From contig NC_087384.1 of NCBI RefSeq assembly GCF_963675165.1, positions 2,006,501 to 2,070,500 on the forward strand: 64,000 bases of DNA, given 5' to 3'. This DNA is from Halichondria panicea (Eukaryota > Porifera > Demospongiae > Suberitida > Halichondriidae). The position numbers and the translations under genes are program-made. Positions 34,101-55,100 of this stretch are shown here, in pieces. The notes beneath the pieces are model-generated. The model did not search any database. It was given only the letters and a program-made list of their open reading frames with translations, and was not told the DNA's origin. How positions within the stretch are numbered: the stretch's first letter is position 1; the number at the start of each line of letters is the position of its first letter.

Positions 34101-37100
34101 AGTTGACTGTTTCTTTGCACAATAATAATTATTACTAAAGCCGGTCAAATGAAAGCACCACGGGTGCTTATGCCTCGGTGGAGGTGTCAAAGCTAAAGCT
34201 ACTAGCTATTATAACATACACAAATTATATCATGATGCAATTAAAATCCAAGAAAACGTGACTATAGAAAAACTCTTATAATTATACTTGCACTTCATTG
34301 ATCCTTGAGCAGCTGTAGCAGTCCACACACACACACACACACACACACACACACACACACACACACACACACACACACACACACACACACACACACACAC
34401 ACACACACACACACACACACACACACACACACACACACACACACACACACACACACACACACACACACACACACACACACACACACACACACACACACAC
34501 ACACACACACACACACACACACACACACACACACACACACACACACACACACACACACACACACACACACACACACACACACACACACACACACACACAC
34601 ACACACACACACACACACACCATGCAGCTCACAGACCACGTTTTATATTACAATGCATCTATAAGGTCACGACCACATGCACCATGCAGTAACACGCACA
34701 TCATAGATCATGAGGACATGGTGAGGAGGAAATATTTTACATGATATGATTTGTGTAATGACATCATTGTAATAATTATACTGATAAGATATCTCAATCC
34801 CCAAGATTCTTGGGGCAATTGACGCATGCGCATACTAGGCCTTCTTTCTCAATTGAGAGCGGCCTGGAATCATGAATTATCTTATAATGAATCTTAGGTC
34901 ACCACCAGTAACATGCACATCACAGATCACCAGGACATGGTGAGAAGGAAACTCTATGATTAGCTAATCTCTGCGATGTGTACAGTTAGATACACTCACC
35001 TTATCTTGAATATCAATATTGGCTCCAGCATTGATTAGAAGTTCCACACACTTCAGGTGACCATGGTAACTGGCTTTCCAGAGAGGGGACTCACCCGACT
35101 GTACATGTAGTACATGAGCAGTTGTTAATTATCTAACTATTGCGTTCTGGCAAGGATCATGTGTATTTATTTAGGTATTGCAGATTTTATTGTTCCGAAT
35201 CATCACAGAGGCCCGGGGACTTTTTGCTCATTCAACCCAACCCTACTATATATTAGCCCATGCACTGTGCTAATGATCTATCATTATGTGGCCAAAACGA
35301 AAGTGTATACCGTAGATCTATAAACTACACTAATTGTTGTGAGGATTGAGCTAGCTATACATATACTATTCGCCATGCTAGAGTTTCTAAAACAATCGTC
35401 CAGTCATACAGTTTCCTCTTCGCCATGTCCTGGTGATCTGTAATGTGCACAAACTAGTTTACTTACAAACTAATGTATAGAACAAATTCCTCAGATTCTG
35501 GGGAACTTGTGCATTTGCACTATCACTTTGACAATAGATACCAAGCCCAGTTGTCGACATAGCGTTAATTTAGAGAGACTGAGGCTAATTTATTCATTAC
35601 CCAAGATTGTGTAGATTATGTAGTGTTGTTAATGAGGTTCATCATTGCATGTGACGTCATGCGTCAATGTGTTTGGCTAGCTAGCTGCTGAAACTATTAT
35701 ACAATATCTTTAGCAACAAAAGCGGCTGGCTTAAAAACAAGGTTTTTTGCTGTTTAGGCCCTCAATAGATAGAGTATGTAAAACACAGAGGCCAAAAACC
35801 AAACCGTAGACCTACATATCTATACAAAAAACAAACAACGCAAGTGTGGATTGGTCTGAATGTTTTGGTTCTAAAAGGTGCGCCACTATATCATATAATT
35901 TTTGGCTCTGAAATCAATTACTGTAACTGACCTTGCTCTGAGTGTTGACTGTAGCCTTGGCTGCTAAGAGGACCCTCACCACCTCATCATGTCCATTGCT
36001 ACTGGCTGCGTGGAGAGCAGTAAAGTTGTCCTGTATTAGAGTGAATATATACATTATTATATACAAGGAGCTTGCACAGGGTGAGCATGCACGGTTTGAG
36101 CAAATACACTTCACGTACTAGTTAATGCACCGTTGCAAGTATACTGGAAGTAATAATTAGTGGGCGTTTGGAAATTCCAGGCTCTTAAATGAATAGGACT
36201 ATTCTTAGTGTAGTAGGTAGTTTATGCAGACGTTTCCTCCCGGAGGGACATTTAGGCTAATAACATAGAACACAACGAATATTCTTGCTGATCCATAAGA
36301 TATAATATCAGCACAGATTTTATCTAGCACGTAAGTAATTGTCTTTCAAAAACCATATACAGTTGCCCAATTATAATAATTCACCTACATATACATAGAA
36401 AAGTGAATGAATCCTAGCAAGGGAGGCTACTATTTGAGTGCGGCCTTTATACAAGAGCGGCCTCTGATCGAGCATATACGGTACATGTAATATTCTTACT
36501 GATCCATTTAAGAGACAATACCAGCACAGATTTTATCTAGCACGTACGTAATTGCCTTTCAAAAAACCATATACAGTTGCGCAATTAACCTACATGTACA
36601 TAGAAAAGTGAATGATGGGTAAAGATCACGATTCTTAAAAGCAAATAACATGCGCAGGTCCAGGACACAGAAACAAAATGGTACAGAATTAATGCTTATG
36701 ATGAGAATACAATACAACAGGGGTATGAGCAATTAAACACACCCTACTATTGTCTTTTTCAAAAACCACATACAGATGGGCAATAAATGTCTCACATAGA
36801 GCGCACTTTGAATGACAACCAGGACATGACAGAGGAAACTCTATGACTAGCTAATCTCTGAGATGTGTACAGTTAGATACACTCACCTCATCTTGTATAT
36901 CAACATTGGCTCCAGCATTGATTAGAAGTTCCACACACTTCAGGTGACCATTGCGACTGGCTTCCCAGAGAGGGGACTCACCCAACTGTACATGTAGTAC
37001 ATGAGCAGTATATTATAAAGCAAGTGTTTGCCAAAACACATACCGTAATGGATGCAATTACAGTACCACTAAAATCTTGGACTCTACGCAAATTTTGAGG

Positions 37101-52100: not shown

Positions 52101-55100
52101 CAACAAAAGCGGCTGGCTTAAAAACAAGGTTTTTTGCTGTTTAGGCCCTCAATAGATAGAGTATGTAAAACACAGAGGCCAAAAACCAAACCGTAGACCT
52201 ACATATCTATACAAAAAACAAACAACGCAAGTGTGGATTGGTCTGAATGTTTTGGTTCTAAAAGGTGCGCCACTATATCATATAATTTTTGGCTCTGAAA
52301 TCAATTACTGTAACTGACCTTGTTCTGAGTGTTGACTGTAGCCTTGGCTGCTAAGAGGACCCTCACCACCTCATCATGTCCATTGCTACTGGCTACGTGG
52401 AGAGCAGTCCGGTTGCCCTGTATTAGAGTGAATATATACATTATTATATACAAGGAGCTTGCACGGTTTGAGCAAATACACTTCACGTACTAGTTAATGC
52501 ACCGTTGCAAGTATACCGGAAGTAATAATTAGTGGGCATTCGGAAATTCCAGGCTCTTAAATGAATAGGACTATTCTTAGTGTAGTATAAATTATAGGTA
52601 GTTTATGCAGATATTTCCTCCCGGAGGGACATTTAGGCTAATAACATAGAACACAACGAATATTCTTGCTGATCCATAAGAGACAATATCATCACAGATT
52701 TTATGTATAATACGCACGTAATTATCTTTCAAAAACCATATGCAGTTGCACAATTATAATAATTCACCTACATGTACATAGAAAAGTGAATGATAGGTAA
52801 GGATCACTATTCTTATGAGAATGCAATACTAACAGTGGTATGAGCAATAAAACCTCACCTCCTCTTGGATATCAACTCGAGCCATAGCTGCAATTAACAC
52901 TTCAACTACCCTCAAGTGACCATTCTGAGCAGCAACATGCAGCGCAGTAGCTCCATGCTGTACAGATTCAAGTAAGGAGTGATGAGAAGGTAAACACACA
53001 CATCAGCTCACAGACCACGTTTTAGGTTAATACGCGTCACGACACACAACCAGGACATGACAAAGGAAACTCTATGACTAGCTAATCTCTGAGATGTGTA
53101 CAGCTAGATACACTCACCTCTGCTTGCATATCAACATTGGCTCCAGCATCGATTAGAAGTTCCACACACTTCAGGTGACCATCGAAACTGGCTGACCAGA
53201 GAGGGAACTGACCCAACTGTACATGTAGTACATGGTTATACCATAGATATAGATACTTATACCACACTTACGTCACCACTAATTGATCTCATTGGTCAAC
53301 AGCTGTAGGATATATAGAATATTAGCATACAGCCCCAGGCATGCACAGTTTTTCAAGTTGTTTTTTAGTTTTTTCATTTGTTCAAGAAAGTAAGCAAAGA
53401 GAAAAGAGCCATGCTTGACAGTACTAAGACTCAAAGCGACGGCAGAAACAAGGAAGGTGCTCTCCAACAAGATGGCTAAGCTTCCATGGGTCCATGGGCG
53501 CGGTTTAGATACATTTTATCCAAGGAGAGCTTGCAACTCCAGTAGGGGACGTCGAATGGTCAAAGCTTGGACCAAGGAAGCTCTTGAGCATCTGTAGGAG
53601 TCAACATGTTGCTCAACTAGCTCTTTGACGGCTGCAAAATCCGGCATAGTCTTGTTCTTTTTTGCAGTCTGCATCGCGATTGAATTGTTGCTAGGGGGAG
53701 GTCCTTTTATAGTGCTACGGTCACGTGGTATAAGTCAGATATGCCACACCTACTCGGAGGATATGCACCCTATATATCCTCCGCTACCGTGGTTACATAC
53801 CCCTCGGCTCCGCCTCGGAGTAACCACGGTAGCGGAGGATATATGGGTGCATATCCTCCTCTTAGGTGTGGTATATCCTATACATATAGAACAATATGAG
53901 GGATTAGAAACAAAAATGTTTACGTGAAACACTCCGCGTTATAGGCTGTCTAAAACTACAAAGGATTATATTTATAGTGAGCATGCTCATTACCCATCTT
54001 GACTGCCATACAATGTGCTGTACATAGAATTGATTATTATGCTTCGGTGCGCATGCACAAGCGAGGTATACGGTAGTGTGTTTGTGTGTCTGTGTGTCTG
54101 TAGGCTGCTCAAGGATCAATGAAGTGCAAGTAAGAGTTTCTATAGGCTTCTAGTCATGGATTTTAATTCGTGGATTTGCAAAATAATGCTTCATTCTCAA
54201 GTTATGCCTAGTTTTGCTTGCCTTTTCAGAAGAGCACGTAGCCAAACTTGTTTACCGACTCTACTTAGTAGTTAGCTCTGCACGTAGCTGCAAGAGTGAG
54301 AAGAGAGCTGCAAGGCTCTGCTGATGGCAGCCATTAATTTTAGACTTGAATCTTGCCATCGATCGTTTTTAACAACAATCGTGGTCCAATCATTACCCAC
54401 TCTTTTAGTTTGCATGCAGCAAATTGAAAAAAATACTGTTCATCATGTGCATTAGTAGCTTTATGTTAATTATGTAGCTTAGGCATCTCTACCGAGGCAT
54501 CATGCAGCACCTGCGGTGCTTTCATAAAAGAAAAGAGAATCTAGCTCTAAAAGGTCGACTAAGCAACTCAGCCACTATCACTAAACAAACTAAAGTGCAA
54601 ACCCTCGTCTGGAGACGTGACATTATTATAAAGAAACCAAAAGAGTTATATAATGCAGTGCATGTATAGTGATGAATATCATGTATGACTTATTAAACTG
54701 TCTAGCACAGCAACTTAGGAGCTAATTTTAAAACCAGACTGGAGGCACGCGCACTGTGGACTAGCCTGGAGTCTCATGCAGAGAGGCTCCTGGAGTAGGA
54801 TCCCAGAGTCAGCTAACAGAGACAAACCAGACACAATTCTAGCTTTCTATTGTATCGATCCTTTTCCACAAACAATCAGGCTTATGTTTCGAATAATAGC
54901 CGTGTTTAGTAGTACGCAAAAAGCTTCTTAGATTTAGCTCACCTTTTTTCTTTGCAAAATCTGCCAAATTTTAAGCCTTAGAAGAGAGGGAATGTGCAAC
55001 TCAACACGTAGCTAGCAGAATTCAAATGTGGGCGGTTGAGTATGTGAATTTGATTGAATTGCTAAAAATAGAAATTTGTATTTTTAGCACTTAATGCACG

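Follow-up and report, generated by a model that had tools for sequence, protein, structure and literature searches.

Introduction

In the brown-algal LRR-ROC-COR (ROCO) candidate immune receptors, each leucine-rich repeat (LRR) has an exon of its own, constant in length and symmetric in phase; these exons are shuffled, and the positively selected sites lie on the concave ligand face (PMC11378527). The sponge locus described here is alike in its Roc-COR-type GTPase, its one-repeat exons of fixed length and symmetric phase, and selection at the predicted ligand face. The algal LRR exons, however, are 72 bp and phase 2, whereas the ankyrin exons here are 99 bp and phase 0; LRR-ROC-COR is the sole domain structure reported in those algae, so that the Death domain is absent; the hosts are algae rather than animals; and alternative splicing is demonstrated there. 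Zambounis 2012 is cited there on these algal receptors.

In the fungal NLR proteins of Podospora, the ankyrin, WD and TPR repeats are highly alike and the selected sites lie mostly on the concave surface (PMC4986451; PMC1805685). The same work describes concerted evolution and exchange between genes of the family, as proposed here, together with a link to allorecognition and repeat-number polymorphism among wild isolates, whereas our data come from one assembly; the switch there is NACHT/NB-ARC rather than Roc-COR. In the sponge Amphimedon, Death/TRADD-N expansions with ankyrin or LRR C termini were proposed to recognize invaders (PMC8195603). They resemble the present family as a lineage-specific Death-superfamily expansion with ankyrin repeats, but the passages that describe them contain neither repeat-level selection nor an exon array. 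The zinc-finger array of PRDM9, with a mean dN/dS of 2.7 (PMC5120217), is likewise an array of homogenized tandem repeats except for positively selected contact residues. The present family does not share its DNA binding. The PRDM9 array also occupies one exon of one gene.

The original prediction knew of no described sponge system like this one, a statement that has to be narrowed: published accounts of the brown-algal LRR-ROCO arrays and of the repeats of fungal NLRs run along much the same lines, and both follow the same logic. Our literature search found no animal ankyrin example of such diversifying exon arrays. From the sequence, we consider it probable (about 0.7) that the genes encode ankyrin-ROCO-Death recognition proteins, probably cytoplasmic, that evolve by diversifying selection and by repeat exchange between genes. 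If so, animals too would have a repeat-based repertoire for recognition, here in very many copies and made of ankyrin exons that sit on a ROCO-Death chassis. Brown algae, fungi and animals would then each have evolved independently the combination of one unit per repeat, a homogenized framework and selected contacts, and a Roc-COR-type switch would have been recruited twice, in brown algae and in animals. Coming from a sponge, the family would offer concrete candidate genes for self/non-self recognition in early animals.

Gene model and exon anatomy

The window, the whole 64,000-nucleotide stretch of Halichondria panicea DNA analyzed here, carries on its minus strand a gene modelled over about 34 kb with eight class-A and seven class-B ankyrin exons. 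All 15 are 99 nt long and phase 0 on both sides, with AG/GT borders. Pfam Ank matched one A exon (E 2e-10), one B exon (8e-10) and exon X (1e-8), and an assignment of these exons to LRR repeats was rejected on those matches. The features in gene order are as follows, with B exons numbered in that order; the original prediction numbered them from low coordinates upward, so that its B1 to B7 are our B7 to B1.

About 56431-56433, minus strand: possible first exon, ending in ATG (by eye)
56247..56336, minus strand: N-terminal half-ankyrin cap exon (SLLMEACDTGDVGVVQLALEGGADPNQANE), AG..GT, phase 0 (by eye)
53118..53216, minus strand: exon A1
52859..52957, minus strand: exon X, a separate ankyrin exon between A1 and B1 (Pfam Ank)
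52319..52417, minus strand: exon B1
50166..50264, minus strand: exon A2
49244..49342, minus strand: exon B2
47085..47183, minus strand: exon A3
45989..46087, minus strand: exon B3
45160..45258, minus strand: exon A4
44236..44334, minus strand: exon B4
40537..40635, minus strand: exon A5
39615..39713, minus strand: exon B5 (B3 of the original prediction)
38707..38805, minus strand: exon A6
37805..37903, minus strand: exon B6 (B2 of the original prediction)
36887..36985, minus strand: exon A7
35932..36030, minus strand: exon B7
35000..35098, minus strand: exon A8
33968..34055, minus strand: 3' ankyrin exon 1 (DGWTMLHIASQNGHSEVVECLVERAHCDT), entered in phase 0 and left in phase 1 (by eye)
27690..27791, minus strand: 3' ankyrin exon 2 (NARNKTGLTPLHTACYNGHKEVVEYLVERAHYDT), Pfam Ank E 2.9e-8 (borders by eye)
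27087..27248, minus strand: 3' ankyrin exon 3 and linker (VTDAGGRTPLDCAIQQGHTETIEYLLNQ...), low-coordinate border approximate (by eye)
26642..26869, minus strand: linker exon (ELLDKLQTPAIIQM...), no Pfam family above cut-off (borders by eye)
24170..26355, minus strand: Roc-COR-like GTPase in a single exon, P0001 (Pfam; borders by eye)
23861..24113, minus strand: exon resembling the C-terminal half of an Ig domain (Ig_3 E 0.016, under the Pfam cut-off)
22358..22692, minus strand: Death-domain exon (Pfam Death E 2.8e-4)
22190-22182, minus strand: probable last codons, E-L-stop

As modelled, the ankyrin solenoid comprises 19 full repeats and the cap, and the introns of the three 3' ankyrin exons shift to phase 1. 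For most internal repeats, one exon encodes one repeat and A and B forms alternate; the 99-nt length and symmetric phase-0 borders allow a unit to be duplicated, deleted or swapped with the frame intact. The same property keeps any subset of the window's A/B exons in frame, as expected if they were Dscam-like splicing alternatives that are not all joined in one solenoid, and the brown-algal LRR-ROCO arrays are alternatively spliced (PMC11378527). On the other hand, A and B alternate in most of the arrays listed, which fits a continuous A-B solenoid, and we regard alternative cassettes as unlikely.

Family, arrays and repeat exchange

The window locus is one member of a large gene family. Among the matches listed, at least 17 A/B arrays lie on the window's contig (C8), with further arrays on other contigs, and the paralogs have from 2 to 22 listed A/B exons, so that array size varies. 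All 138 A/B matches in the DNA examined keep the reading frame, 136 with a length of 99 nt and 2 with 102 nt, and no stop was found among the best 150 candidates; a pseudogene array was rejected. An assembly artefact was also rejected, because the pattern recurs in many distinct arrays.

The closest relative of an exon sits in another gene for 79-83% of exons, or 81-85% when judged by the intron, whereas random pairing gives 93%. Identical exons occur in different genes, and the 65 B exons show 49 distinct combinations of five variable residues. The near-identical introns, the closest relatives in other genes and the free combination of variant codons show, indirectly, that repeat units are exchanged and homogenized within and between the genes of the cluster. 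Recent gene or block duplication explains part of the exon kinship between genes. Two arrays, located at 1.43 and 1.84 Mb, have Roc exons separated by a dS of 0.008; the comparison of their repeats, which covered three exons with unmatched flanks, was set aside.

Domains downstream of the ankyrin array

The window gene has, in order, ankyrin repeats (above cut-off), Roc (weak) and Death (just under cut-off). In P0001, Roc scored E 0.018, under the Pfam Roc cut-off. The match is weak but consistent, being present at E <= 0.05 in 15 of 15 paralogous exons (best 4.5e-4); COR-A reached that level in 5 of the 15 (best 2.2e-5) and was not found in P0001. The P0001 motifs GPPFVGKTT (P-loop), DIGGQPGF and GTHKDK sit in columns that are invariant across the 15 paralogs and that we take to be the P-loop, DxGGQ and THKD-type motifs. 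With this exon as query, a sequence search of solved structures gave no match, a profile search of solved structures gave nothing significant (best an unrelated enzyme at E 0.019, with LRRK2 Roc at 0.044-0.12), and NCBIfam gave nothing above cut-off. NLR/STAND membership was rejected, as no NACHT or NB-ARC was found in P0001 (E <= 10) or in the 15 paralogs (E <= 0.05).

The Death exon narrowly missed the Pfam cut-off (20.1-21.4 bits against 22.6). The genome has at least 150 Death matches and, among the matches listed, 13 of the 17 C8 arrays have one on the same strand within 17 kb downstream. With local shifts as the control, the mean was 1.7 and the maximum 8, and none of 5,000 shifts reached 13. 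A Roc-COR exon precedes the Death match in 4 of the 17, again among the matches listed. Ankyrin, Roc, COR and Death follow one another in that order in DAPK1 too, although DAPK1 is a conserved gene rather than a diversifying array and has a kinase; Pfam found no protein kinase in the 10 open reading frames scanned here, a set that takes in only part of those between 56 kb and the end of the window at 64 kb.

In the predicted protein, which is probably cytoplasmic, a long ankyrin solenoid would be followed by a Roc-COR-like GTPase as the switch and, at the C terminus, by a Death domain. Judging from these domains, a varied ligand, self or microbial, would bind the solenoid and operate the GTPase switch, the Death domains would be gathered, and a death or immune signal would follow. 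A recognition receptor, as originally proposed, becomes likelier given the Roc-COR-like and Death domains downstream.

Positions of the variable residues

The residue lists of the original prediction were exact. In its order, residue 3 of the seven class-B exons is Phe, Met, Trp, Val, Arg, Leu and Arg; residues 8, 10 and 11 vary and residues 12-23 are constant. In the eight class-A exons, residue 8 is Lys, Glu, Ser or Val, residue 11 is Tyr, Arg or Phe, and residue 12 is His, Asn, Lys, Tyr or Asp, while GHLKCVELLI is fixed and followed by Asn or Asp.

The original prediction placed residues 3, 11 and 12 at contact sites randomized in DARPins. We take these three to be DARPin positions 5, 13 and 14, with the restriction that residue 12 does not vary in the window's class-B exons. 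Residues 8 and 10 (presumably DARPin 10 and 12) are not among the randomized sites, and residue 32 (DARPin 1) is hypervariable as well, across the family and in both classes. The binding positions preset for the tests below were DARPin 2, 3, 5, 13, 14 and 33 (exon residues 33, 1, 3, 11, 12 and 31). Their placement on the ligand face follows DARPin numbering rather than a model of the window array, and since DARPin positions are surface-variable by design, variation there is expected in any ankyrin set and only an excess in rate carries weight.

Probable selection and conversion

The exon pair singled out by the original prediction, B6 and B5, differs at 10 sites in the first 40 nt and at none in the last 59, as predicted. 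For the adjacent intron, about 14 changes in some 800 bp had been estimated; we measured 13 in 803 aligned bases on the 5' side and 6 in 809 on the 3' side, with 20 and 10 gap columns, respectively. The exon differs from the two introns with Fisher p values of 1.3e-8 and 1.1e-10, which are illustrative because the pair was hand-picked.

We then used 136 A/B exons (71 A, 65 B) from 15 arrays of C8 and a small contig. In a codon model that ignores recombination, which is clearly present, joint omega at the six preset positions was 4.4-13.7 in class B and 3.9-6.4 in class A, against 0.39-0.86 at the rest, and the likelihood ratio against omega = 1 was 45-178 in all six class-by-tree fits. The Roc-COR-like exon, the sole working negative control, gave an omega of 0.26-0.67 (28 pairs, 8 copies), which is ordinary constraint. 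In the per-codon scan, the ratio exceeded 18 with omega above 1 at codons 1, 3, 8, 11 and 32 of class B (codon 7 gave 10.9) and at 1, 3, 8, 11, 12 and 32 of class A. Weak signs were seen at B10, A7, A23 and A30, and other codons were at or below 1. No sign of selection appeared at preset codons 31 and 33 in either class or at 12 in class B; the preset-position signal stems from codons 1, 3 and 11 and from A12.

Close pairs were selected on one flank and measured on another, with no exon reused within a scheme (50, 49 and 50 pairs). Nonsynonymous divergence per site was 0.138-0.158 at DARPin positions, 0.168-0.183 at codons 8, 10 and 32, and 0.013-0.014 in the framework elsewhere; synonymous divergence was 0.050-0.056 and intron divergence 0.013-0.023. 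The codon model and the close pairs thus bear out the predicted dN/dS above 1 and nonsynonymous excess at the named codons, and exon and intron divergence were not equal, the contact codons diverging far more than the introns.

A conversion mosaic could produce such a pattern without positive selection, if the introns and the 3' two thirds of the exons were homogenized while the 5' third and residue 32 retained old recombining variants under relaxed constraint. In the close pairs, synonymous sites of exons have diverged 2.4-4 times as far as introns, an outcome not expected from point selection by itself, and exchange of older exon segments probably contributes; the free recombination of variant codons fits the mosaic too. 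A tree-free count of minimal mutational steps, which is biased to synonymous paths and saturates but still counts against selection, gave contact-codon N/S of 0.51-1.00, not significantly above neutral. Over all B pairs, pS was 0.19 and pN 0.26 at the contact codons with 8, 10 and 32, a ratio of only 1.4 (0.10 and 0.22 over all A pairs). Against the mosaic, N is 2.8-3.1 times S at the preset contact codons in close pairs, and the hot codons are interspersed with codons 6, 9 and 13, whose amino acid is unchanged in all 136 exons, rather than forming one uniform tract. Relaxed constraint also predicts equal third-base variation, whereas variation at bases 1 and 2 of the hot codons, chosen after seeing the data, is 1.6-3 times that at base 3; base 3 is the most variable in the remaining codons. 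We therefore judge conversion without selection to be rather improbable. The original prediction left a choice between diversifying selection and conversion that leaves the binding codons untouched; our data indicate that the two act jointly, with amino-acid selection, under the caveats above, apparently favoring new residues at hairpin and helix-1 sites of the predicted binding surface against homogenization.

Local hypermutation of the 5' part of the exon by a germline or somatic mutator, with selection only apparent, would account for a minimal-step count of 4.3-5.3 per contact codon, compared with 1.1-1.2 for the other codons. The codon-position bias, however, argues for protein-level filtering, the invariant codons 6, 9 and 13 lie beside hot ones, and hot codon 32 is at the opposite end of the exon. 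Hypermutation alone is very improbable; in combination with subsequent strong selection, it may play a part.

Tandem expansion of an ankyrin family with a structural or scaffold role, neither immune nor allorecognizing, is another candidate explanation, with paralog-specific partners driving the divergence. Ankyrins bind many kinds of partner, and DAPK-type ankyrin-Roc-COR-Death proteins work in cell death rather than pathogen sensing. But omega above 1 in two repeat classes and many genes is more like conflict-driven receptors, and the wide range of array sizes and the repeat exchange between genes are unlike stable scaffolds, which makes this explanation doubtful. Within the preferred reading of recognition proteins, a further step is tentative: the family may be a natural counterpart of a DARPin library. 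Its ankyrin cassettes, numbering in the hundreds, would be spread over many Death-domain genes, exchanged across a megabase-scale cluster and diversified mainly at the paratope, and would provide an individual-specific intracellular repertoire for allorecognition or immunity. Individuality would then come from allelic array turnover and perhaps combinatorial splicing.

Among control ankyrin families, L001 and L004 gave no pairs at 80% identity, their repeats being too diverged for comparison, and L003 and L005-L008 yielded at most two repeats each. L002, a single-exon ankyrin array on contig C15, was rejected as a negative control since its repeats vary in the same way (at DARPin positions pN is 0.229, with a pS of 0.093), and is a second example. 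The four copies of exon X compared differ at residues 1, 23, 32 and 33. In one example, the A2-B2 block of the window differs from a gene at 2.233 Mb of C8 by 5 substitutions in 1,621 bp; three of the five lie in exons, at A2 codon 32 and B2 codon 3, and each of them changes the amino acid.

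Gene model of the window array

In the 131-Mb assembly (39 contigs), the window covers C8:2006501-2070500. The array is encoded on the minus strand and comprises eight class A and seven class B ankyrin exons, each 99 nt long with both ends in phase 0 and AG/GT borders. Pfam Ank scored over its cut-off in the three exons scanned (X, one A exon and one B exon). The other parts of the gene were read by eye; their borders are predicted from splice motifs and frame only, and small exons may also lie between the Ig-like and Death exons. The features besides the A and B exons are as follows.

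56247-56336: half-repeat cap exon, upstream of the array
Between A1 and B1, minus strand: X, an additional ankyrin exon
Downstream of the array: three more ankyrin exons, where the introns change to phase 1
After these: linker exon
After the linker: Roc-COR-like GTPase exon, 2.2 kb (P0001)
23861-24113, minus strand: exon similar to an Ig domain's C-terminal half, located between the GTPase and Death exons
Next: Death-domain exon, with the gene model ending near 22182

Roc was matched in 15 of 15 paralogs and COR-A in 5 of 15 at E <= 0.05 (15 of 70 matches scanned), and the GTPase exon was therefore assigned to Roc-COR. P0001 by itself was under the Pfam cut-off for Roc, and its profile found nothing significant among solved structures, where an unrelated enzyme came top at E 0.019 and LRRK2 Roc followed at 0.044-0.12. 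The Death exon scored 21.4 bits against a Pfam cut-off of 22.6; the Ig match, also below the cut-off, was weaker. Neither NACHT nor NB-ARC came up in the domain scans of P0001 and the 15 paralogs.

Directly beyond the 3' side of the array lies a perfect (CA)148 run (34324-34620), and 63017-63776 holds 8.3 tandem copies of a 91-bp unit. On the plus strand, an open frame at 17766-18398 matches Pfam Destabilase (i-type lysozyme) at E 1.3e-11, and a zf-CRD domain at 7605-7940 (E 2.5e-13) belongs to a neighbouring gene.

Variation is concentrated at predicted contact codons

The original prediction was of an ankyrin exon array with variation focused on ligand-binding codons. Its residue lists for the A and B exons matched the extracted exons exactly, and the B2/B3 pair that it named has 10 differences within the first 40 nt and is identical over the following 59 nt, with 13/803 and 6/809 in the flanking introns. 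Among all 21 class B pairs in the window, 1-10 differences fall in the first 36 nt vs 0-4 in the last 63. The observation is real, and it was replicated far outside the window.

We take the DARPin numbering of the six randomised positions (2, 3, 5, 13, 14 and 33) to apply to the A and B exons, exon residues 3, 11 and 12 being DARPin 5, 13 and 14. With the window alone, pN at these positions was 4.1 times pS for A (28 pairs) and 2.0 times pS for B (21 pairs). Across the family, entropy was highest at residues 11, 3, 32, 8, 1 and 10 in 65 B exons and at 11, 8, 12, 32, 3 and 1 in 71 A exons, while the core motifs were almost invariant. The six positions ranked high in entropy (permutation p 0.005 and 0.006), which alone is weak evidence because such positions vary across ankyrins generally. 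In DARPins, the randomised positions are described as the surface positions making up the paratope (PMC8683736).

Probable selection at the predicted contact codons

We used a custom MG94-type codon model with the six DARPin positions preset, on trees built either from flank and exon together or from each by itself. In all trees, omega at the DARPin positions was 4.4-13.7 (B) and 3.9-6.4 (A), with 0.39-0.86 at other codons; tested against omega = 1, the likelihood ratios ranged from 45 to 178. A per-codon scan gave signal at residues 1, 3, 11 and A12 among the preset six. Outside these, residues 8 and 32 gave signal in each class, as did B7. The Roc-COR-like exon showed ordinary constraint, with omega 0.26-0.67 (28 pairs from eight family members).

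Close pairs were picked on one flank and their introns measured on another (50, 49 and 50 pairs). Nonsynonymous change per site was 0.138-0.158 at DARPin positions, 0.168-0.183 at residues 8, 10 and 32, and 0.013-0.014 at other codons; synonymous change was 0.050-0.056 and intron divergence 0.013-0.023. The clearest single case is the window's A2-B2 block: compared with its counterpart in the gene at 2.233 Mb, it has 5 substitutions in 1621 bp. Introns hold two of them, and all three exonic ones are nonsynonymous, falling in codon 32 of A2 or codon 3 of B2. Across their A1-X-B1 blocks, these two genes have, over 1106 aligned bases, 3 substitutions plus 22 gap columns.

Probable exchange between genes

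Several results count against selection of a simple kind. In the close pairs, exon synonymous divergence was 2.4-4 times intron divergence, much of the excess adjoining hot codons (B4, B31 and A2). A minimal-step count, which is tree-free, was designed to favour synonymous paths and saturates, gave N/S at DARPin positions of 0.51 for B and 0.84 for A. Adding residues 8, 10 and 32 raised these values to 0.82 and 1.00, the remaining codons gave 0.48 and 0.41, and none of the ratios was significantly above 1. Despite its bias, this result cannot be ignored.

Variant codons recombine freely, with four-gamete quartets at all pairs of the 5 B and 7 A positions examined. In 79-83% of cases an exon's closest relative lies in a different gene, same-gene relatives being 2-3 times above chance. 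For these reasons, exon segments seem to have been exchanged in short tracts that are older than the surrounding introns.

A rival account is conversion without positive selection. At contact codons including 8, 10 and 32, pS reached 0.19 (pN 0.26) over all B pairs and 0.10 (pN 0.22) over A pairs; the B value lends some weight to conversion alone, as does the silence of preset positions 31, 33 and B12 in the per-codon scan. However, diversity at the hot codons, picked post hoc, was 0.32-0.50 at bases 1 and 2 vs 0.17-0.20 at base 3, whereas base 3 was the most variable in non-hot codons. Exchange alone leaves this bias unexplained, and we consider it unlikely to suffice. Since the synonymous excess equally makes point selection alone insufficient, the best account of the sequences is probably (about 0.7) diversifying selection at predicted contact codons combined with exchange between genes, in a putative receptor; the two together would account for everything.

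A second ankyrin family and published systems

Among eight other ankyrin loci examined, only L002 (C15:711966-715220) had repeats similar enough for testing. It is a single-exon array of 15 ankyrin repeats with a Death match at C15:714459. Over 104 pairs, pN was 0.229 at DARPin positions, 0.309 at residues 8, 10 and 32, and 0.039 elsewhere, with pS 0.093. Since this single-exon locus has an equal profile, the one-exon-per-repeat layout is unnecessary for the pattern, and the phenomenon extends past the window locus.

The closest published systems appear to be the brown-algal LRR-ROCO genes, described with one 72-bp exon per LRR and four positively selected concave-face sites (PMC11378527), and Podospora NLR ankyrin repeats, reported to combine positive selection chiefly on the concave face with repeat-number polymorphism and concerted evolution (PMC4986451), a pattern with a WD-repeat precedent (PMC1805685). 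In sponges, reports describe NLR and SRCR expression changes, with ankyrin-repeat genes among the regulated ones, and receptor expression specific to individuals (PMC6208332, PMC8242945); large Death/TRADD-N expansions are reported in Amphimedon (PMC8195603). Searches of an open library listed no comparable ankyrin exon array from an animal, which is weak evidence that none exists, since that library lacks most subscription papers.

Family size and genomic layout

One B exon (best 150 of 669 candidates) and one A exon (best 150 of 883) were used as genome queries. Of the 300 listed matches, 163 were on C8 (152), C17 (7) and C22 (4), and the rest mostly on C10. Examined as DNA, 138 of the 163 comprised 136 in-frame 99-nt exons and 2 in-frame 102-nt exons. 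With X included, the extracted set came to 140 exons (71 A, 65 B and 4 X), encoding 62 distinct proteins for A and 54 for B. Genome-wide, the Roc-COR-like exon had 70 matches and the Death domain at least 150.

Among the matches listed, C8, the window's contig, carries 17 arrays of 2-22 A/B exons, most with A-B alternation. For 13 of these, a same-strand Death match follows at a distance of no more than 17 kb, and for a fourteenth at 38.6 kb, with none listed within 40 kb for three; a Roc-COR exon precedes it in 4 of 17, the window's included. Arrays shifted locally by 20-300 kb (5000 trials) gave a mean of 1.7 Death pairings and a maximum of 8 (vs 13 observed), and the opposite side and strand gave none. 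The longest listed array, C8:2415951-2445933, has 22 A/B matches and is the one with its nearest listed downstream Death match at 38.6 kb.

A/B exons also occur at C22:135918-139584 (loci L108 and L109) on a 143-kb contig. This may represent either another paralog or a second haplotype of one of the C8 arrays, and an allelic comparison might then be possible. In the window, a minus-strand frame at 61355-61636 resembles the gene's Death domain by eye and meets a stop soon after. It has no Pfam match and seems to be the degraded end of a copy lying upstream.
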